Below are positions 3,251-61,395 of a DNA stretch of 64,000 nucleotides, one piece after another; the first letter of the stretch is position 1; each line of letters starts with the position of its first letter. Under the pieces are notes generated by a model. It was not told the origin of the DNA. It did no database searches and saw only the letters and a list, made by a program, of their open reading frames with translations. A program made the position numbers and the translations under genes. The stretch is from Apoderus coryli (taxonomy: Eukaryota; Arthropoda; Insecta; Coleoptera; Attelabidae), in the NCBI GenBank assembly GCA_911728435.2, contig OU452201.1, positions 26,288,001 through 26,352,000 on the forward strand, read 5' to 3'.

Positions 3251-3432
3251 TAAATGAAAAAGCGTGGTTTGGTTTTATTTTCTCACAGAAATTTATAAAA
3301 ATAAAATTCTGGTAAACTAATACTATGTACCTATGTACATAAAAATTGTACGGCATAGTCATAAAAATTATAAAATTTTTCCACGACTTTTATTGGCATT
3401 ACTTTCTTATATCAAAATATATAAATAATTAT

Positions 3433-3779
3433 AACAAGATGTTTTTGCTGACATCTAGTGTGAGCAGGCAGATGTGCCGGAATTCCCTGGCGGGAGGCTT
3501 TATTTGTGTTGCTTCTTGTCCGGCCATCGTTTGTGAACTGTATTTGACCGGGCATATATCCTGCTCACACTAAATCTCGCCAACAACAGTTTGTTGTCTT
3601 TCATATCTCGTGCTAGTATAACCTCTTCGTGAATGCGGAAATTTGGATCACACAGCTTGCCGATCACCACTGATGAGTTGTGGATCAACGAAACGGCCCG
3701 TCTGGTGAAAGCATGGTGGTGTGAACCAAATTTCCAGCATAGCTGAGAGTCTTGTTACTTTACTTAGCAAGCGATTCAC
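3433..3779 (+). mobile_element. Hammerhead-ribozyme element, copy 1
   Basis: A 347-bp unit flanked by a 14-bp direct repeat, ATATAAATAATTAT, at 3419-3432 and 3780-3793. Its left half is a hairpin: GCTGACATCTAGTGTGAGCA near 3446 and its inverted partner near 3558-3585. The right half holds a hammerhead ribozyme (about 3658-3712) followed by an AT-rich tail. Copy 2 at 60090-60435 has the same left boundary (AGATGTTTTTG, then GACATCTAG), the same ribozyme and nearly the same length, but the middle of its left hairpin is in the opposite orientation. No protein is encoded and no poly(A) tail is visible. The target-site duplication points to retrotransposition; class is otherwise unknown. Confidence 0.75.
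3658..3712 (+). ncRNA. Hammerhead ribozyme, type I, copy 1
   Basis: All core elements are present and correctly spaced. Stem I TCACCA (3664-3669) pairs with TGGTGA (3703-3708). The core is CTGATGA (3670-3676). Stem II is GTTG/CAAC around a TGGAT loop (3677-3689). GAAAC (3690-3694) is followed by a two-pair stem III (AC/GT, loop GGCCC), and the cleavage triplet GTC ends at 3702. Stem II is GTCG/CGAC in copy 2, a compensatory change. Self-cleavage after 3702 is predicted from known hammerheads; the two-pair stem III may mean efficient cleavage needs a dimer or the long stem I. Confidence 0.88.
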
Positions 3780-4170
3780 ATATAAATAATTATTTTACTT
3801 TTAATTAAATATTATAACAATATTTACGTCACAATAGTTACGAAAAATAGGTATTTAATTTTGTTTGATTGGCCTAGCTCACAGATTCTTAAAATGTATA
3901 AAATCGTCATTGTCATAGAGCTTACTTTATCGATGAATAAAACCTTTAGCGTAGAATAATATTGGAAGGCACGTTTTATCACTTCACGAAAATACGTTTT
4001 TGAATATCTACGCGCGATTCGTAAATACTGCTAGCATCCTCACGAGAGAATTAAAACAATATCTTCCAATAATAGTGTGTACTAAAAACAAACTAAATTC
4101 ATATAATAATAATATAATTTGTTCATTCTAAAGAAGTAGTCCATGTCGAAGTGGAGTAGAATAATTAAAT

Positions 4171-25649: not shown

Positions 25650-25880
25650 AAAAAAGTAAATGAATGATAAATAAATATAAGTTTTAAATACGTACCTTGA
25701 TTCCCTCCCCTATTTAAAGAAAAAGTATATACTTATTAATAATATCTGAAGCATACTTAATGAAATCCTAGAAGTACTTACCGTGTTAAAACAAATCTGT
25801 AGTGATTGGTTATCAAACCCCACTGCAGAATTTCTCCTATCTGGAAGAAAGTAGAAGGATGTAAAAAAAAAAAAAAAAAA

Positions 25881-25910
<30 letters not shown>
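25650..25910. other. Spacer between R4/Dong fragments
   Basis: About 210 bp of unrecognised sequence (including the exon-like stretch at 25782-25840), then an A-run and (AAT)n at 25862-25912 that form the left junction of the next fragment. Confidence 0.5.
25782..25840 (-). other. Exon-like segment with good splice sites, status uncertain
   Basis: A 59-nt stretch on the host gene's strand sits between a strong acceptor (CTACTTTCTTCCAG) and a strong donor (GTAAGTAC). It is open in phases 0 and 1. Entered from exon C in phase 1 it would leave in phase 0 and push exon D out of frame, giving a stop after about 25 codons. It could be a cryptic or poison exon of the host gene, part of an inserted cDNA (a poly-A-like run follows on the plus strand at 25862), or chance. 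No protein similarity is recognised. Confidence 0.2.
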
Positions 25911-25914
<4 letters not shown>

Positions 25915-25915
<1 letters not shown>

Positions 25916-28065
25916 CTTTCCAACATTTTTAACTGAAGGACTTACTTATTTAATTCCAAAGACTGATAACCCGGATCACCCTTCGTTGTTTCGTCCCATT
26001 ACATGCTTGCCGACCCTTTATAAGATCCTTACGTCGATATTATGTGCTAAACTTGAAGACCACCTGGAACTGGCTCAAGTGATGACAGATGAGCAGAAAG
26101 GTGCTAGACGCAACGTTATGGGATGCAAGGAGCAGCTGGTTGTCGATTCCGTAGTTATGCAGCAGTTGAGGGTGGGGCAGAGAAATGCACACATTGCATA
26201 CATCGACTATAAAAAAGCATTTGACTCTGTCCCTCACTCTTGGCTCAAATTTGTATTGACACTGTATAAAGTACATCCTACGCTTATACTTTTTCTTGAG
26301 ACAACTATGAGGGCCTGGCGAACCACACTGTCTCAAAAAATAAATAACGAACTAGTATTTAGCGGGAGCATACCTCTGCGCAGAGGTATCTTTCAGGGGG
26401 ATTCGCTCAGTGCCCTATGGTTTTGTCTGTCTCTAAACCCAATTTCAAACACTCTTAAGAAAACAGAGTATGGAGTAAAATTAAAAAATAATGTACAGGA
26501 TCTCTTAGTAAGTCACCTTTTCTATGTTGATGACCTAAAAGTGTATGCAGCAAATGACAGACAGCTGAGAGCCATGCTAAAGCTGGTGCATGATATGAGT
26601 TCGGACATAGGTATGACTTTTGGACTGGAGAAGTGCCGCACGATCAAAATGGTCAAAGGGGTACTTAAAGAGTCACAACCTATAGAAATTAATAACGAGG
26701 TCGTCATACAAGGTATTGAAGAACCCTATAAATACCTGGGTATAGATCAGACCCATAAAATAGAACATACAACGATGAAATCGAAACTGTCTACTGAATT
26801 TGAAAAGCGAGTTAAGCTAATTATCAAAACAAAACTAAACTCAAAAAATATCGTTAAGGCTATAAACACATATGCAATATCTGCCTTAACCCATTCCTTT
26901 GGCATAATCAGATGGTCTGATACAGATCTTGATGCACTAAATAGACGAATCAGAACACTTCTAACGCACAAAAGAATGCATCACCCAAATGCATGCACTG
27001 AGAGAGTCACATTGCCTAGATGCCTGGGAGGTAGAGGTTTAAAAGATGTTAAAGCAATGTACTATGAACAGCTGGATAATATTAGAAAATATTTTTACAA
27101 AAACTCGGATAAACCGATGTACCGTGCAGTGATCGAGGCAGATAAAAATTTGACCACACTTAATTTAAAATCCCGAGAATATAACCCAAAAACACACATT
27201 ACTACCAACGAGGATAAAATTAGGATGTGGTCAGGAAAGCAACTCCATGGAAGATTTTACAACTCCGTTCAAAACAATTACGTTGACAAATCCCTCTCTT
27301 TTATGTGGGCTACAAAAGGTTACCTCCATCCTGAAACTGAAGGATTCTTAATGGCCACGCAGGACCAAGTTATAAAAACACGAAATTACGCCAAATACAT
27401 ACTGGGAGAAGACCTGAGTTCTGATAAATGCCGCAAGTGCGGAGCTGTTTCCGAAACTATAGATCATATTTTGGGATCCTGTAACACACTAGCAAATACG
27501 AAGTACTTGACTCGACACAATCAAGTAGCACATATAATCCATCAGAAAATACTGATAGACAGAAAAATGAAAACCGAAATTGTCCCCTACTACAAATATG
27601 TGCCAAACGAAGTTGAGGAAAACGATCAATTTAAAATATATTGGGACAAAACAATTTACACCGATCATACAATAGAACACAACCGTCCTGATATTACATT
27701 AATAGACAAGAAAAAACACACAACATATCTAATTGATGTTTCTATACCAGGAACACACAATCTGCAACAAAAACATACGGAAAAATTAAACAAATATCAA
27801 GCGCTTCAACATGAAATAAAGCGCATCTGGAATATGAGGGAAGTGTACATAATACCTATAATACTATCGTCGATAGGAGTAATACCGAAAAATTTGGAAA
27901 AGAACCTAAAAATGATTCAAATCCCTATTACCGTAATTGAGGAGATGCAGAAAGCTGCGATACTGCAATCTCTCAACATTGTGAGATCTTTCTTGGCTGT
28001 TGGCAATGCTCATGAATCTTGAAACCTTGTTTTCCGATTCTAAAGCAAAATATACCCTTATGGTG

Positions 28066-28991: not shown

Positions 28992-31770
28992 TCAAATAAC
29001 AGAAATACACATTCTTAATTGGCTTTTAAATGAACTTGGTGACAAGTCCAACAAATAATATACAGAATTCAGCAATTTAGGCGCCATACACGAAAATGAA
29101 CCCTCATATCTAGCGGTTCTGTGCTGGGGAATAGTGAAAGAATTAGTCCGTATATTCACATTGTGAACACTAGAACGCCTGTTCAATAGTCTATATAAGT
29201 AAGACGGCGATTCAGAATGATACAATTTATATAGCATCATAATGTAAAAAAATTTCAGTCTAGAACCGAGTCTAATCTCAGACAGTCTCTCATAGAATGG
29301 AGTTATATGTGCCCTATAAGGCACTTTACAGACATACCTAATGCAAGCATTCTGCACTCTTTGAATCTTGGCTTTATTATAATCTGTTAGAAAGCTATAA
29401 TATACCTGAGAGCAGTAGTCAATGTTGGGATACACCAATGCTCTAACCAGAGAAAGCTTCGTCCTTTCATCCAAAACATCCTTAAGATGATACAATGACT
29501 TCAGTCTATAAAACGCATTCTTATAAACATGGATGCAATGCTCATGAAAAGACAGTCTGGTATCGAAAATAACACCCAAATTACGGGCCTCTCTCTTCCA
29601 CTGGACTTCGACGCTATTAATCTTTACACCGAAAGCAGTCTCAACAAGCTCAGTCGCACGCTCATTTCCAAAACACATTGCAATTGACTTTTTTGGATTA
29701 ATTTTTAGTCCATTGTCAAGGCACCATCCCGAAAACCCACACAGATCCTTGTCCATATCCCTCATCACTCTAGGCAAGTCACCCAGAGGGAATGACATAT
29801 AAAACTGGATATCGTCCGCATACATATGGATACGACAGTGTTGAACCACGCTGCCTATGTCAAAAGTATACAAAGAAAACAGAAGAGGGCCCACTATGCT
29901 ACCCTGAGGGACACCACAAGTTGTTTCTTTAAAGTCAGATAAATCTGAAGGACTAATTTTAACTCTCTGTTTTCTATGAACTAAGTAATTCCGAAACCAT
30001 TCCATGCATGTCTCGGTGAAACCAATATATTTCAACTTAGACAAGAGCAAATCAAAATTCACCAAGTCAAACGCCTTACTCTGGTCCAATAAAACAAGAA
30101 CCGTGAGCTCTGAATTGTCCATTGCTCGTGCAATATCATCTACGACTTTTAGCAACGCAGTGTTAGTGCTATGCATCCTGCGAAATCCGGACTGAACTTC
30201 AGGCAATAAATTATTCTCATTCAAAAACTGTTGCACTTGTCTGCTAACTATACGCTCAAATGGATATTGGTCGAAGGTCACTGAATGTAGACGGACGGGA
30301 AACCTTAGGCAGTGGTATAACATTAGCTGTCTTCCAACTTTCAGGAAACGTGCCACTCTCAAGAGACTTATTAAAAATATGTGTTACCACATGTATACAA
30401 AAAGGAAGCACCATTCGGATCATTCTTATATTCACACCATCAATGCCATAAGACTCAGACCTGACTGAACGCACACTCTCAAAAACATCCTCATTTGATA
30501 TCTCATGAAACTCAAAACGAAGATGTTCCCCAAATGTAGTAGTGTTATAAAATTGTATATTATCACTGCTTACATTAATCGGTCCCGCGGCATTTAGAAA
30601 ATAGTTATTTAAATCATCGGGCTTTCTTAATTCCTCAGGAATATGGGAAGTACCCTTGCCCTTCGAAGAAAAAACGCCCCACTGAGAAAACTTGCTCCAA
30701 AGTTTTTTTGAGTCTGATTTGAAACGCTGAATTGTTTGGGAAACATAAGCCTTCTTTTCAGCATTAATCGCGTTTTTGACATAATTACGCATTTCTACGT
30801 AGTGTAAACGTGATGCCAATGAACGAGTCCCCAAATACTTTCGATGCGCTTTATTTCTTAAATTTATCATTTTTTTTATGGTATATGTAATGTATGGACG
30901 AAAAGGGCGATTTGCTCTAATAGATCTGAGAGGGGCATGTGTATTAAAAAGTGTTAATATATTTTCATTAAGTTGCTCGACTGCCGTTGAAACATCAGTG
31001 GCGAGAGCAACAGCATCCCAATCAAATGAGAGCGCATCCTCTGAAAATAGTTCGGAGTTAAAGCTATGAAAACATCTATAGATAATATCTCTCCCAACTC
31101 TCCCCACAGACTCAACAGACAGAGTGCAGAATACAAGCAAATGATCAGTCTTACAACCAGTGTCAATCGTAGTAGAGAAATCCAATTTCAAGTTGTTACT
31201 GATGCAAATGATATCAATCAATGATTCACTGGTATTTGTTATTCGTGTTGGCCCATCAATTACCTGCACTAAATCAAACTGTTGCATTACCGAGAGAAAC
31301 TTTAGGACATCGTTCGATTGCCGATTCAAAAAATTTATATTGCAATCACCCATAAGTACAATAGAATCAGTATTCAAATATACTTTCTCCAACGAATCAG
31401 TCAATTCATAGACCGAATCAATATTAATATGTGGAGGTCTGTATATGACACCCAAACCGATCTTCTTATTTTTTAAAGAAACTAGTGTCCACAATTGTTC
31501 AATACCACTGTCACTAATAAAAGACAACATAACCCTTGACCTAAACTTATTTTTTATATATACGGCTAAACCCCCACCCCTGCTTGGGCGATCGAGTCTA
31601 TGCATATCGTAACCTACCAAACTTATATAATCATTGGGGAAATCTTGCCTCAACCATGTCTCAGACACTGTCAGTACATCAAAGCTTTGCTCTAATGCAA
31701 AATTCTTAAAATTACCGAAATCCGCTACAAGAGACCTTATGTTAATATGTGCGCATTTAAGCTTCAGTTT
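28992..31770 (-). pseudogene. LINE ORF2, endonuclease and reverse transcriptase, one lesion
   Basis: The endonuclease begins in the -1 frame across the ORF1 stop: LKLKCAHINIRSLVADFGNF with the catalytic N-x-R, then TVSETWLRQ (Glu), IVLMGDCNINFL and TDHLLVFC (D-H). The reverse transcriptase has LVLLDQSKAFDLV, GVPQGSIVGPLLFSLY and MYADDIQFY (YADD). Near 30278 the text goes from SDLRPISI straight to FERIVSRQVQQ in another frame; roughly 20 nt (about seven codons) are missing. No ATG lies before the catalytic Asn of the endonuclease in this frame (first ATG at 31668), so ordinary initiation would lose that residue. Confidence 0.85.
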
Positions 31771-34581: not shown

Positions 34582-34624
34582 AACTGCAAGAAAGAACTGT
34601 ACTATACAGTTCTTTCTTGCAGTT
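34582..34624. repeat. 43-bp perfect palindrome
   Basis: AACTGCAAGAAAGAACTGTA, CTA, then its exact reverse complement. The right arm recurs in direct orientation at 34625-34655. A possible LINE C-terminus (LKKTLKKCLF, plus strand about 34706) follows. Confidence 0.85.
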
Positions 34625-34655
34625 AACTGTACTATACAGTTCTTTCTTGGAGTTC

Positions 34656-35759: not shown

Positions 35760-35845
35760 ATTTTTTTTTAACAGGAGCTCAAGAAATTATTATTCTAAGG
35801 CAAAAAATAAAAACTAGTCACTACGAGAATATAAAATATAACATA

Positions 35846-36289
35846 TATAATATAATATAATATAATATAATATAATATAATATAATATAATATAATATAA
35901 TATAATATAATATAATATAATATAATATAATATAATATAATATAATATAATATAATATAATATAATATAATATAATATAATATAATATAATATAATATAA
36001 TATAATATAATATAATATAATATAATATAATATAATATAATATAATATAATATAATATAATATAATATAATATAATATAATATAATATAATATAATATAA
36101 TATAATATAATATAATATAATATAATATAATATAATATAATATAATATAATATAATATAATATAATATAATATAATATAATATAATATAATATAATATAA
36201 TATAATATAATATAATATAATATAATATAATATAATATAATATAATATAATATAATATAATATAATATAATATAATATAATATAATATA
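35846..36289. repeat. (TATAA)n array, about 88 units
   Basis: About 444 bp of TATAA repeated without any interruption that I can see. It produces a long meaningless open frame on the minus strand, which should not be annotated as protein. Confidence 0.95.
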
Positions 36290-43689: not shown

Positions 43690-44800
43690 GGGTTGCCTTT
43701 TATATTTCGGGATTTGGCAACCCTGGTGTTGCAATCTGGCAACTGACAGCTCTATCGTAAAGTTGGACATTTTTGAGGTTATACGTACTCAGAACGTTTT
43801 GACATACGAGCGCTATGTGTTTTGTTTCCAGTAACTTAAAAGATTCATCTCGGCCCAAAAATGGAATTAAATCGTAAACACTTTCGTGCGATTATTTTTT
43901 ACAACTTTCGACGTGGATTAACTCAGCAACAGTGCATGGATGAACTTAACTCAATTTTTGGCGATGACGCTCCATCAAGGAACAGTGTTTATCGATGGTA
44001 TGGTGAATTCAATCGTGGTCGTAGTACACTCCAAGACGAATTTCGTGAAGGTCGTCCAAAATCAGTTGTTGTTCCGAAAACCATTGATGCTGTGCGCGAA
44101 CTGATATTGCCAGATCGTCATGTGACCTATCAAGAGATTGAGACAACCTTAGGCATTAGTGGGACCAGCATACATTCAATATTGCATAAACATTTGACTG
44201 TTCGCGTTGGATCCCACACAATATGTCAATTGCTCAAAAAAAGGCTCGGGTCGGTTGGTCGAAAGAAGAAGAAGAAGAAGAAATGCAAAAAATACGATCG
44301 CGGTGCTTCGAAACACGTTTATGACAAAGTGGCAGGTGATGAATCGTGGATTACGCTTATCAGCCCGAAATTAAACAGCAGTCGACTGTATGGGTGTTTC
44401 AAGATGAGTCAAATCCAACAAAAGTTGTTCGGGCACGAAGCACTTCCAAGCAAATGGTCGCCTGTTTATTCGGAAACACTGGGCATAGAACAACGCAGAA
44501 CAGTCAATTCTGAGTGGTGCACAACCATTTGTTTGCCAGTTGTCTTCCAAGAAATCAGGAAAACCAACCGCCGAAGACACTCTTCACCACGACAATGCGA
44601 GCTCTCACACATCGTCTCAAACAACTGCATTTTTGAGTACCTAAAACATCGATTTGATGAGTCATCCACCATATAGTCCTGACACCTGAAAAAGCGGTTG
44701 CTGCATTCAGAATGCATGTTTTGGAGATACCTCAATCAGAGTGGCAAAAGTGCTTCGACAATTGGTTCAATTCACGAGGAATATTTTAAAAAACAATAAA
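43690..44800 (+). pseudogene. Mariner transposase relic (SETMAR-type)
   Basis: The 5' end CGAGGGTTGCCTTTTATATT (43688) is a typical mariner terminus. ATG 43861 opens a frame with the SETMAR/mariner helix-turn-helix: MELNRKHFRAIIFYNFRRGL, QQQCMDELNSIFGDDAPSRN, TVYRWY-like. DESWI (first catalytic Asp) appears near 44340. Then frames alternate: EQRRTVNSEWCTTICLPVVF, a piece matching HHDNASSHT but out of frame, and MSHPPYSPD. A lysine repeat (GAAGAAGAAGAAG, 44266-44281) lies in the linker. The 3' terminal repeat is not found. Confidence 0.8.
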
Positions 44801-51934: not shown

Positions 51935-54344
51935 TTATTTATTTATTTGAGATACCGCCCAGACAGACGAATCCAATTAAAGGGCAGGAAAAAAAATACA
52001 TATATATGTACATTACAAACATAAAAAATAAATATTATAATTTAATTAGTACTCTACTAAAAACTTAAAATTAACTTCTCAAAATTATGTTCCTTATGAA
52101 CGATAATTTAGTGTTAAACAAATCAATCTGGTCCGATAAGGAGTTACAAACAGAACACATTGTAAATAAAGGAGAATGCAGCAACAAATTTGTGCGCGCT
52201 CCCGACAAATAAAAAATAGAGTTAATGTTACGTGTGCGTATACTTGGTGCATAGAAAGGAATCATTGCTAAAAGTTCCGGACAATCAATCATTCCATTCA
52301 AAATTTTAAAAAGTAAAACAAAAGCAGAAAACTCCCTACGTTTGCTCAAATAAATTAAATTAAAACAACTCAACAAAGTGTCCTGAGGAAATCCAATGAC
52401 TGGGTAAGTCGCATCACAGCGAAACCACAGAAACTTAACAAAACGACGCTGAATCCTTTCAATATTTGTGGAATGTATATCATAAACAGGATTCCATACC
52501 ACAGAGACATACTCCAGCTTAGACCTCACAAATGCATTAAATAGGGTAATGAGCGTTTGCGGGGACTTAAATTCCCTTGAGTTACGCAGAATAAAACCAA
52601 GAGACCTAAAGGATGCTGAAATAACGTTATTATAATGTTCAATAAAGTTCAGCTTACTATCAAAGTAAACTCCCAAATCTTTAATTTGATTACAAACAGT
52701 TAATGGACTATTGTGTATAAAATACAGAGAACTTACAGGCTTCATCTTACGTGTATAGGAAACAGAAAAACACTTATTTATATTCAAAAAAAGATTGTTA
52801 CGAACACACCACTCATAAAGCCTATTCAAATCCTCTTGAAGGAGATAACAGTCATCGGTACTATTAATGACAGAATACAACTTGAAGTCATCCGCATATA
52901 AGAGTGAACTACAAGTTAAGTTGCTGGAGATATCATCAATGAAACACATAAATAATAAAGGTCCCAGTACCGAACCCTGGGGAACTCCAGAAGTTACCAT
53001 AATGTTGTCAGACTTGAATCCTTTGTACTCCACATACTGACAACGTCCCTTTAAATAGGACTGCAAAAATAGGAGAATGTTATTTGATAGACCGAAGCGG
53101 GATAATTTCGCCAATAAGATGCCATGATCAAGTCTGTCAAAGGTCTTGGAGAAGTCGGTGTAGATAACATCCACCTGACCTCCACGATCTAATTGTGTGG
53201 CTAGAAATTGTGTTAAAACAAGTAAGTTGGTTGTTGTAGAACGACCCGGAAAGAAACCATGCTGCACAGTTGAAATCTGCCGACTTACATGATTCATTAT
53301 AATATCATGCAATATAAACTCGAAAACCTTCGCAAAACAAGACTGAATGGATATCGGTCGATAAGTTGAAATATCATGCTTATCGCCTTTTTTATAAACC
53401 GGCGTAACTCTAGAAGATTTCCAAATAGATGGGAAAATGCATGATTGCAACGACAGATTGAAAATAGTGCATAACGGTCCAGCGAATACAGCAGAACAAT
53501 CTCTAATCAAAAAAGATGGTATACCATCGGGGCCTGCTGTAAATTTTGGTTTTAATTTTCGCAGCGCATGATAAACCTCAGATTCCACAATTTTTCGATC
53601 AGACAAAAAAGGTACGTTTAATGACTCAAGCGTGCAATCATTGATATCAAAAGTATGGGAATTAACGTAGGATGTACTGAAATACTCAACAAATTTATTT
53701 ACCAGTCCCTGCTGATCCTCAATACTCTCCCCATTATACGTCATACTACTCGGCAAGCATCCAAAATTTTTACGCAAATGTATAAAAGACCAGAACATCC
53801 CAGGATCATCATTAAGTCTACTCTCGGCCTCAGTCAAATAGGATTGGTAAGAAGAATTTACAACAGATTTAATATACCGCCTCAAAACTTTAAATTCATT
53901 CAATGCATCAGGATCACCAGAAGATTTATATCTTTTCCACAGCTTAGATTTTTATTTAATATTGCGTACAACATCATTTGAAAACCATGGAGGATACTTA
54001 CAAATTTTTGCATAGGAAATCGGTACCGATTCCGCAAACACATTCTTCAATTTAGCATGAAAATGGTGACAGGCAATTTCAGGATCACTGCAGTTATCAA
54101 GGTCTGAGAAATCAAGCTGAAGAAAGCGTTCATACAGGGTTGGAAAATTAGCTTTTTTAAAGTTGAAAAATGGCTTACAACTACTGGCTGTAGTTGACTT
54201 TTCAGCTGATTTGATGCTATAATCAACATCAAGAGGAGGATGATGAAGATCCACCGGTAGGAAGTAATTAACAGACGCAGATACCTGAGCGGAATATCGA
54301 CACAATATCAAATCAAGAAGTCTACCACCATCATTCCTATATAA
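51935..54344 (-). pseudogene. Long LINE ORF2 (Jockey/R1-like), one stop codon
   Basis: Minus strand from an endonuclease C-terminus at 54344 (NDGGRLLDLILC) to a stop at 52071. The only coding break seen is a TAA at 53951-53953 within RNIK-KSKLWKRYKSSGD, probably from AAA. The reverse transcriptase is otherwise complete: SRVTPVYKKGDKHDISTYRP, VIYTDFSKTFDRLDH, TSGVPQGSVLGPLLFMCFID, LLYADDFKLYS (YADD). The thumb and tail follow. The 3' end is GGGCGGTATCTCAAATAAAT with an (AAAT)n tail (51928-51952). 5'-truncated inside the endonuclease and relatively young. Confidence 0.88.
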
Positions 54345-58539: not shown

Positions 58540-60089
58540 CGGCAACCGTCCGGGATGTACCCACTTCCCGGACGCTTTTTCTTTGAGAAAGTAGCATTTC
58601 CCGGACTAGGACGGGAAGAATCACGTCGTTGTTGTCAATTCAAACAAATTGAATCCTTTCAATATTAGCAATAGCTCGAATTTTAATATAAATATTAATA
58701 TAAGTAAGAATTAAAATTTTTCTGTTAATATGTAGTATTTTCTGTTCTGTTTAATTCAAATAAGATTTAAAATGTATAATAAAGAAATGTGTCGTCTCAT
58801 TTATTTATTATTCTACACGGTTGCCAAAAAAAAATATTGTACGCAACACGCCCGAAAAACCTATTTTCCGGACTTGTACGTAAATTACTATTTTCGGCAA
58901 CCGTCCGGGATGTACCCACTTCCCGGGCGCTTTTTCTTTGAGAAAGTAGCATTTCCCGGACTAGAGCGGGCAGAATCATGTTATTGTAAACATGAAAATC
59001 TTGGTAGGTATGGTTTTGATAAATGCAGTTGATCATTACCATAGCAACGAAATAACGGCTGACAGTTCATATGAAATTAGTTGTCAAACGTTTACAAGTT
59101 TGCATGTTTTTTGATCGCAATTCGCAATAAAATATGAAAAGCAGCAGCGATAGTGACTTTGAAAATGTGCCATGGGAAATTTATAATATAGCAGCTGCTG
59201 CTAGAGCACAATTATTGTCTGAAAAATAAAAATCCAGGTACGAAAACGTTTATGATTTGTTCACAAAATGGATGGATACGAAGCATTGCAAAACTATTAC
59301 AGAGGATGTAATTTTGGCTTATTTGGCGTAAAAACTTGAAACTGTCAAATCCTCTACTCTGTGGAGCATCTAGGTACTTTATGTTGAAAAGTACCATTTT
59401 AGTGAGGAAAAATGTAAACATAGCCACTTTCCCAAAGGTTATCGCATTCCTAAAAAGAAAAATGTTGGTTACAAAGCCAAGAAATCAGAACTCTTCAGCA
59501 GTGAGCCGATCAAAAAATTCATTAGGGAAGCGGATAATGAAAGATATCTAATGCTGAAGGTGATTTTAACAAAATATTACGATTACGAGTAGGATATAAA
59601 AGTATCAACTTAATTTTCAGGTAGCAACAATTATTGGGTTAACCGGTGCGTGTAGACGAGAGGAACTAACAAAAATGTCAATTGATCTAATAAACGACAA
59701 GTAAAAAATGTTGCTTGTGAAAATACCGGACTCCAAGACACATATTGAGAGAACTTGTGTTGTAATTGGGCAAGAAAACCTGCTGTTGTATAGGCAACAT
59801 TTATCATTACGGCCATCCCATACCCCACATAACAGATTATTCGAGAACTACAAAAAAAAGGAAATTGTTCGATTCAGCCTGTTTTGGGAGTATCGGATAA
59901 AATTCGTAGAATTTTTACATTTACCTAATCCTAAAAATTACACAGGCCATAGCATTCGTCGAACTTCGGCACCGCTATTTGCTGATAATGGTGGAAACAT
60001 CACAAATTTGAAGAGAAAGGGTGGCTGGAAGTCTACCAATGTGGCTGAAGGATATATAGATAATTCACTTAGAAACAAAATTAAAATTG

Positions 60090-60435
60090 AGAGAGAGATG
60101 TTTTTGGCGACATCTAGCGTGAACATACAATATGCCGTGTGAAACACAGTTCACAAACGATGGCCGGACAAGAAGTAACAACTCCATTATATCCTATTGC
60201 CAACACTAGATGCGCCCGAATCCCCTAGCAGGGAGGCTTTATTTAAGAATTGCTTGTTACATAAAGCAACAAGACTTTAAGTTATGTTGGAAATTTGGGT
60301 CACACTGCCTGCCGATCACCACTGATGAGTCGTGGATCGACGAAACGGCCGTCTGGTGAAAGCATGGTAGTGTGAAACAAATTTCCAACATAACTTAAAG
60401 TCCTGTTGCTTTATGTAACAAGCAATTCTTAAATT
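60090..60435 (+). mobile_element. Hammerhead-ribozyme element, copy 2
   Basis: A 346-bp insert in the recombinase gene, flanked by TAAAATTG (60082-60089 and 60436-60443). Removing it joins NKIKI to ATTIQESS in frame. Its left part is a hairpin (GGCGACATCTAGCGTG and inverse near 60192-60210), with the middle inverted relative to copy 1. Its right part is a long hairpin: 60245-60320 pairs with 60354-60430, with the ribozyme at the tip. No protein is encoded. Confidence 0.8.
60311..60364 (+). ncRNA. Hammerhead ribozyme, type I, copy 2
   Basis: Stem I TCACCA (60316-60321) with TGGTGA (60354-60359), extended by some 65 further mostly paired bases on each side. Core CTGATGA (60322-60328), stem II GTCG/CGAC with loop TGGAT, GAAAC (60342-60346), stem III AC/GT with loop GGCC, triplet GTC ending at 60353. 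Fully canonical core. Predicted cleavage lies between 60353 and 60354. Confidence 0.9.
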
Positions 60436-60928
60436 TAAAATTGCCACGACCATTCAAGAATCATCAGATCAAAACAATCAATGTGAAACGGAAACTTTGC
60501 CTTCTTGTTCTGGCTTCAACAAAAGGAATTTAAATATACCAAGCATTTCAAACAAATTGAATCCCTTCAATATTAGCAATTGCTCGAATTTTAATATATA
60601 TATTAATATAAATAAGAATTAAAATGTTTCTGTTAATATGTAGTACTTTCTGTTCTCTTTAATTCAAATAAAATTTAAAATGTATAATAAAGAAATAAAT
60701 AAATGTGTCGTCTCATTTATTTATTATTCTACACTGTTGGCGAAAAAATATTGTACGCAACACGCCCGAAAAACCTATTTTCCAGACTTGTTACGTAAAT
60801 TACTATTTTTTTTATCAGTAAGTTGGTAAATTATTTTTGATAAGTGACATTTCTTTCCCCAGGTAAATAATATAATAATAAAAAAACACATAGGTGGGTA
60901 AATAATAGTTATTTATTATAGAAGGGAA

Positions 60929-61179: not shown

Positions 61180-61395
61180 ATGTCTGATTTCGAGTTTTCT
61201 CTGACTGCACCGGAGTTAGTAGAAGCAGCGAAAGTAGTGTCACAAAAATTATTGCCATCTAAATCGCGAAAAATTTACGAAACCGCGTATTCAACATTTA
61301 TGGAATGGAAGATGAAAAAGACATGCAGTTCTTTAGCGGAGACGGTGTTATTGGCGTATTGTCCACTTCAGGATTTATTAAAAATTATTATCTAA
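61180..61395 (+). pseudogene. Crypton-like recombinase, N-terminal fragment
   Basis: MSDFEFSLTAPELVEAAKVV, then SRKIYETAYSTFMEWKMKK and AETVLLAY match the N-terminal, core-binding part of the neighbouring recombinase (SRYENVYDLFTKWMDTK, DVILAY) but are clearly diverged. After AYCPLQ the similarity stops. A second lineage of the same element type, 3'-truncated. Confidence 0.6.

Follow-up and report, generated by a model that had tools for sequence, protein, structure and literature searches.

Head-to-head insertions from two fixed start sites in a hammerhead retrozyme family of Apoderus coryli, and their likeness to insertions of Penelope-like elements

Small non-coding elements that carry hammerhead ribozymes have been described from both plants and animals. 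Plant LTR retrozymes are portrayed (PMC4918200; passages of PMC7761336) as non-coding elements with a hammerhead and a circular RNA life cycle; their hammerheads lie in direct LTRs accompanied by a PBS and a PPT, with 4-bp target duplications (passages of PMC7761336), and belong to type III according to the part of PMC7229834 that deals with them. Metazoan non-LTR retrozymes, in the passages of PMC7229834 that characterise them, are non-coding tandem units of about 170-400 nt with one type I hammerhead, a highly self-paired predicted circle and target duplications of more than 4 bp, and they occur in genomes that also contain Penelope-like elements (PLEs). PLEs are named there as strong candidates for mobilising these retrozymes, and parts of PMC7761336 also give a PLE as the likely helper. 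For both the route and the enzyme by which metazoan retrozymes return to the genome, the passages concerned in these two papers offer the PLE as likely, without demonstration.

PLEs themselves are far larger elements, which encode a reverse transcriptase as well as an endonuclease and whose hammerheads are of the minimal form. A section of PMC3846280 describes PLEs with pLTRs arranged head to head, one of which bears a tail, and a lizard PLE in purified form can cleave both DNA strands in vitro and extend them, with a preference for AT-rich DNA (PMC11167929). Reverse transcription by the lizard PLE begins at two internal positions that delimit the tail, most frequently 111-118 nt into the ORF, and the hammerhead cut of the same ORF is at +26 (PMC11167929). 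Here we describe a retrozyme family of Apoderus coryli whose insertions show a closely similar arrangement, starting from two copies in a 64-kb (64,000-nucleotide) stretch of the genome, referred to below as the window.

Copy 1 lies at 60090-60430 (plus strand, 341 bp without its target duplication). The original prediction had treated 60090-60435, 346 bp, as a mobile unit flanked on both sides by TAAAATTG. This exact 8-bp repeat is indeed present (60082-60089 and 60436-60443), but it is the core of a fuller 13-bp duplication with one mismatch, AAAATTAAAATTG at 60077-60089 and AAATTTAAAATTG at 60431-60443, so that the insert shortens to 341 bp. Nor is the stretch itself the unit. The unit is a tandem monomer of 336/337 nt, numbered here M1 to M337 from the first base 3' of the hammerhead cut, and the stretch is the product of an insertion in which an antisense arm is followed by a sense arm. 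The antisense arm (60086-60283, minus strand; 98% identity to the working reference) runs from M236 down to M39, with its outer end at start site B, and the sense arm (60284-60434, plus strand; 98%) runs from M268 through M337/M1 to M81, and its outer end is at start site A. Both arms overlap the target duplication with their outermost bases, and the two arms meet head to head in a 13-nt microhomology, ATGTTGGAAATTT (60284-60296, plus strand). The arms are inverted rather than direct, which, together with duplications of 11-15 bp in the family, bears out the suggestion that this is not the plant LTR layout.

The type I hammerhead ribozyme of copy 1 (60316-60359, plus strand) matches Rfam RF00163 with 33.8 bits (E 1.2e-4, with the 64-kb window as search space). 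The curated gathering score, 34, is slightly higher, which explains why a gathering-score Rfam search of the window returned nothing. Cleavage is predicted between 60353 and 60354, the same position that had been proposed from the letters. The hammerhead had also been placed at the tip of a 185-nt hairpin. The ribozyme stands, but the hairpin measures about 194 nt (60241-60434, plus strand; arms 60241-60321 and 60354-60434, 89% complementary) and consists for the most part of the joint between head-to-head arms, with the native hammerhead stem inside and a palindrome created by the joint outside. A fold of 60089-60442 reached -158.3 kcal/mol (z -14.5), and none of 100 shuffles was equally stable. 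The outer hairpin is the head-to-head joint and not a conserved fold, and copy 1 is an example of a short insertion whose joint happens by chance to fall inside the hammerhead stem. Because it has a single hammerhead and its sense arm falls short of a full unit, copy 1 is unable to yield a unit circle alone; tandem arms like those of locus L031, described below, could do so.

Copy 1 interrupts a weakly tyrosine-recombinase-like ORF (59708-60142, plus strand) whose last codons lie inside the insert. When the flanks are joined in silico without copy 1, the frame reads ...NKIKI-ATTIQ... and is free of stops across the site, as anticipated. It should be noted, however, that the interrupted gene is decayed and that "recombinase" is a weak call, because the match to Pfam Phage_integrase falls below the cut-off (E 0.0021, 18.3 bits against 27.1) and several in-frame stops lie within 600 bases upstream of the ORF. 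A further frame at 61180-61395, which starts MSDFEFSLTAPELVEAAKVV and is soon stopped, looks by eye like the start of this recombinase-like gene. Elsewhere, the window contains an ORF with the helix-turn-helix of a Mos1-type (mariner) transposase (43861-44676; HTH_48, 42.7 bits), two tandem 30-bp copies in a palindromic stretch with weak miRNA-model matches on both strands (34595-34654), and an ATATA array of 92 copies and 459 bp (35831-36289).

A comparison of the window with itself revealed an older, internally deleted insertion, copy 2 (3433-3779, plus strand, 347 bp), which was absent from the original prediction. It is flanked by an exact 14-bp target duplication, ATATAAATAATTAT, at 3419-3432 and 3780-3793. 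Its antisense arm (3437-3505, minus strand; 88-89% identity) runs from M226 to M194 and then from M114 to M78, the intervening piece being deleted, and its sense arm (3506-3786, plus strand; 83%) runs from M141 via the hammerhead to M84. Within the hammerhead core (3670-3693, plus strand), a C-G pair of stem II has been replaced by T-A with both sides changed (TCG..CGA to TTG..CAA). We also considered copy 2 as an inverted internal segment and rejected this reading; its layout is antisense-sense like that of copy 1, with an internal deletion. No ORF of at least 100 aa lies wholly inside either window copy, and no long direct repeats were found in or around copy 1.

Searches of the whole genome (428,062,225 bases, 129 contigs) gave 1311 candidate places with copy 1 as query, 1323 with the non-hammerhead half of the unit and 1329 with the hammerhead half. 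Since the best 40 of roughly 1300 candidates were scored per query, these totals are first-look counts in which old copies are barely sampled. The original prediction of a mobile family built on a hammerhead, with duplications of 8-15 bp in many copies, is upheld by these more than 1300 candidate places and by the 11-15 bp duplications observed in 36 insertions. The unit recurs as a tandem monomer of 336/337 bp with one hammerhead each, in arrays of 1.9 to 6 units; at L031, for example, six units whose hammerhead lies on the minus strand are followed by five on the plus strand. Of 71 full unit passages from 39 loci, 59 retain both the CTGATGAG..CGAAA core and the GTC cut triplet. Rfam at gathering score listed no hammerhead at six further retrozyme loci, and a hammerhead pattern search in viral and prokaryote collections gave 0 matches in each.

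Some insertions appear to have been copied as part of something larger. On contig C21, the same partial insertion, covering about M24-M239, is present four times (L064-L067) and may be carried by a larger repeat, given that flanks or duplication letters match. Likewise, L043, L044 and L053, on contigs C1 (twice, once inverted) and C7, are one insertion with the same 12-bp duplication, and because this duplication is common to all three the insertion was probably copied within a larger mobile element.

The family has most of the tested features of the metazoan non-LTR retrozymes, so that a named kind exists for an element that had initially been matched to none. In line with the passages of PMC7229834 cited above, it is an apparently non-coding tandem unit (336/337 nt) with a single type I hammerhead, its predicted circle is highly self-paired, its target duplications exceed 4 bp (11-15 bp in 36 insertions), and PLEs are present in the same genome. 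With the plant LTR retrozymes it shares the hammerhead and, as far as the window copies show, the non-coding nature, and a circular RNA life cycle would be shared as well if our reading of the insertions is right, whereas its hammerhead is of type I rather than type III. The insertions differ from the tandem copies described in those passages of PMC7229834, in that most are head-to-head and use two fixed starts, one each. In the open-licence literature, taken without supplements, we found no paper that names both retrozyme and head-to-head. We therefore regard the family as a known kind and its two-start head-to-head insertion as new.

To describe the anatomy of the insertions, each locus was decomposed by a Viterbi mapping to strand and unit position, and clusters shorter than 150 bp or at most 60 bases from a locus end were excluded before counting. 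The resulting 56 insertions consist of 53 (56 rows minus L043, L053 and L065, whose duplications are shared with L044 or L064) and three obtained later. With class windows of M74-86 for A and M224-243 for B, 41 of the 56 resolved insertions are head-to-head with one A and one B end, antisense then sense. Two are B/B (L013 and L021, with no clear duplication) and none is A/A. The insertions outside the A/B pattern, 15 of 56 in all, further include four head-to-head insertions that have some other end or are complex (L012, L026, L044, L074) and nine of a single orientation (L046, L047, L049, L051, L052, L054, L064, L077, L102), where L077 is counted with a doubtful 13-bp forward piece. The plain sense-then-antisense order was found in 0 of 56; L026 and L008 carry an extra reversed piece after the forward arm, which in L008 is 26 bp long. 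An automatic rule made 34 of the A/B calls among the 53 insertions, L005, L008, L019, L022 and L078 were called after duplication-based trimming of the ends, and two of the 41 came from the batch found with the hammerhead half, the right arm of L101 being just about 12 nt. If the two ends were chosen independently, at least 41 A/B among 43 canonical pairs would have P 1e-10.

The first 39 insertions, of which 28 are A/B, came mostly from the copy-1 query and the window and lean to copy-1-like joints. In a second sample, the query lay wholly between A and B. From it, 30 of 42 matched places were cut out, and its 14 new insertions comprise 11 A/B, one with A and another end (L074), one with a single A (L077) and one with a single B (L064). 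The third sample used the hammerhead half, a query that would catch A/A, and the three loci fetched were two A/B and one single A. In these end-free samples (14 + 3), every new canonical pair, 13 of 13, combines A with B; with even odds for each pairing this would have P 1.2e-4.

Site A is about 77 nt downstream of the hammerhead cut, and site B about 233 nt. The statistics on ends refer to 36 of 39 A/B insertions, those with a resolved duplication (L007, L015 and L083 omitted), which range from 326 to 3691 bp in length. In 35 of these 36, A is located at M74-80 and in the remaining one at M85 (within CAAUUCUUAAAU); B is located at M228-238 (CUCUCUCAAUCAA). The duplications measure 13 bp in 13 insertions, 12 bp in 12, 14 bp in six, 11 bp in four and 15 bp in one, and five of them contain one mismatch. 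At A, the target and the RNA share a microhomology of 2.86 nt on average (range 0-6), compared with 0.83 nt for shuffled duplications, and at B of 1.92 nt (range 0-5; none in 7 of 36), compared with 0.52 nt; 0 of 2000 shuffles of the duplication letters reached the observed microhomology. In circular folds of four natural units, the sole unpaired runs of at least 12 nt are M70-87, which holds A, and about M217-246, which holds B. None of the 36 A/B insertions examined has a poly(A) end.

Among 39 A/B insertions, the longer arm spans more than one unit in 22 and both arms do so in six, the longest arm reaching 2019 bp. At the six loci checked, units inside one arm are 99.1-100% identical, and such near-identical units in multi-unit arms are, as far as sequence can tell, consistent with a unit-length circular RNA. 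The two arms of an insertion are closer to each other than to other insertions in 35 of 37 cases (exceptions L040 and L045), and rare variants, present in at most two insertions, are common to both arms in 11 of 37. This likeness within insertions favours a single RNA molecule as template of both arms; later gene conversion could be an alternative or an added source of it. The arms meet at many different unit positions, with 0-2 nt of homology in 24 of 30 joints; of the others, two have 4 or 11 extra bases and four have homologies of 4, 4, 7 and 13 nt. An idea suggested by copy 1, that joining always takes place in the inverted repeat ATGTTGGAAATTT around the hammerhead, holds for copy 1 itself. 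However, homology of at least 4 nt occurs in just 4 of 30 joints (about 1.5% by chance), and we dropped the idea because insertions found without the copy-1 query join at many places.

The PLEs of the same genome are organised in a very similar manner. A GIY-YIG domain search of the genome gave 1260 candidate places, and among the 150 of these that were scored, neighbouring GIY-YIG pairs within 8 kb were head-to-head in 19 of 19 instances. Four of the pairs, L096-L099, were examined more closely. Locus L096 has an ORF of 752 aa with RVT_1 (59.3 bits) and GIY-YIG (26.7 bits) in one frame and a palindrome of 4838 bp (99.6%). L098 and L099 are shorter copies of this family, and L097 represents another PLE family, whose whole ORF had no Pfam match and whose GIY-YIG stretch scored 32.7 bits in the domain search. 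The genome thus has at least two PLE families, neither of which is singled out as helper. The best duplications are 12 bp exact or 15 bp with one mismatch at L096, 14 bp at L097, and 12 bp at both L098 and L099. All four loci have one tailed and one untailed end, with a tail of about 25-40 bp, and this pairing is the PLE form of the A/B rule. A hammerhead-like core pattern, a pattern match only, lies by both outer ends at all four, but on L096 and L097 an Rfam search with E values of up to 1 found no hammerhead. A search for solved-structure relatives of the PLE protein returned only two weak matches (E 0.094 and 0.096), both group II intron-like reverse transcriptases.

Retrozyme insertions and PLEs, as known here and from PMC11167929 and the relevant section of PMC3846280, are thus alike in being head-to-head with short duplications, one end tailed, internal starts and AT-rich targets, and in having a hammerhead or hammerhead-like motif near an end. 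Subtraction of the figures in PMC11167929 gives a distance of about 85-92 nt from the hammerhead cut to the lizard PLE start; for retrozyme site A the distance is about 77 nt. There are differences as well. The retrozyme is far smaller and appears to have no long ORF, its A-B spacing is about 156 nt whereas the PLE tail is about 25-40 bp, and its ends match the target over a few nt, whereas the lizard PLE starts are reported as non-homologous to the cut DNA (PMC11167929). A link between retrozyme and PLE by sequence was also considered and dropped, as alignment of the unit with 14 PLE loci gave nothing beyond a fragment beside L097 and short chance matches. Recognition would therefore be by shape, or by a PLE family outside those examined, and it is the shared pattern rather than a cis signal that suggests a helper role for PLEs. 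Two observations may be added on hammerheads near PLEs. The fragment beside L097 (L097:99-402) is about 84% identical to the unit, contains a hammerhead core and adjoins the PLE insertion, and a distinct hammerhead-like core, CTGATGATGGACGTATGTGTCCGAAA, lies near a PLE endonuclease at L094:710-735 (minus strand), perhaps from another retrozyme or PLE family.

We consider it probable that these non-LTR retrozymes insert by reverse transcription that rolls around a single RNA circle and is primed by Penelope machinery from the two cut strands. Tandem genomic units would be transcribed, and their hammerheads would cleave the RNA into monomers of 336/337 nt, which, judging from the kind of retrozyme, would be closed into circles. 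A PLE reverse transcriptase with a GIY-YIG endonuclease would cut both target strands with a stagger of 11-15 bp, and each freed 3' end may then pair over 0-6 nt (mostly 1-4) at the unpaired joint A or B of a single RNA circle. The paired ends would be extended along the circle, in some insertions for much less than one turn and in others for as many as about six, and the growing strands would be linked close to their 3' ends, a step that involves little homology. The predicted product is antisense then sense, with A and B at opposite outer ends and the target duplication outside. A more specific version, which seems to us as apt to be wrong as right, is that a PLE dimer copies one circle from both strands at once and that one A and one B are obligatory because each subunit sits on one unpaired joint; this would be a two-headed rolling-circle target-primed reverse transcription common to retrozymes and PLEs.

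Several other processes could yield inverted insertions. LINE-type twin priming produces antisense-then-sense insertions with target duplications, as LINE-1 inversions illustrate, and the non-LTR (LINE) reverse transcriptase that would insert the RNA in this manner, with the inversion as its known 5'-inversion by-product, might be at hand, as the window has reverse-transcriptase ORFs at 25806-28022, 28992-30362 and 52071-53903, one of which adjoins an Exo_endo_phos_2 ORF. However, the second starts of LINE twin priming are scattered, the inversions are a minority of insertions, and they have a poly(A) end. Here both starts are fixed, with one of each in 41 of 43 canonical pairs, a poly(A) end is missing from all 36 insertions examined, and the GIY-YIG PLEs of the genome share the same end grammar, which makes twin priming unlikely. 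A second possibility is that the cDNA snaps back at its own 3' end and self-primes the second strand, giving a palindrome of the same orientation; self-priming has been proposed for PLE inverted repeats in a part of PMC3846280, and the joint of copy 1 does fall in an inverted repeat. An arm copied second in this way could not extend beyond the first, yet in copy 1 the left arm reaches M236 while the right arm ends at M81, nor could it begin at a second fixed site with microhomology to the target. Since the joints are also spread over the unit, with the low homology reported above in 24 of 30, we regard snap-back as very improbable.

Even less credence can be given to a foldback or MITE-like DNA transposon with long inverted repeats. 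Such an element would account for an inverted structure with a target duplication at more than 1300 candidate places, but its two ends should not differ in sequence as A and B do; its arms would not be unequal fractions and multiples of a tandem unit, its duplication would not vary from 11 to 15 bp, and the self-cutting ribozyme in each unit would be out of place. Assembly errors can also give palindromes, but duplications that differ from one insertion to the next flank all 36 of those listed, the hammerhead core and triplet are intact in 59 of 71 passages, and the frame interrupted by copy 1 is open once that copy is left out, so that chance or an assembly artefact is the least believable of these explanations. 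Priming of one RNA circle from both cut strands by Penelope machinery is the reading to which the anatomy of the insertions points, since the insertions follow the head-to-head, two-start grammar that the PLEs of the genome also follow.

The helper question is now simple to test, because a PLE able to cut both strands and extend them is available in purified form (PMC11167929). Retrozymes of 337 nt with defined starts are natural substrates for such work on a mode of retrotransposition distinct from that of LINE and LTR elements. Likewise, the near-perfect head-to-head PLE palindromes with one tailed end found in this genome form a natural set for studies of PLE insertion.
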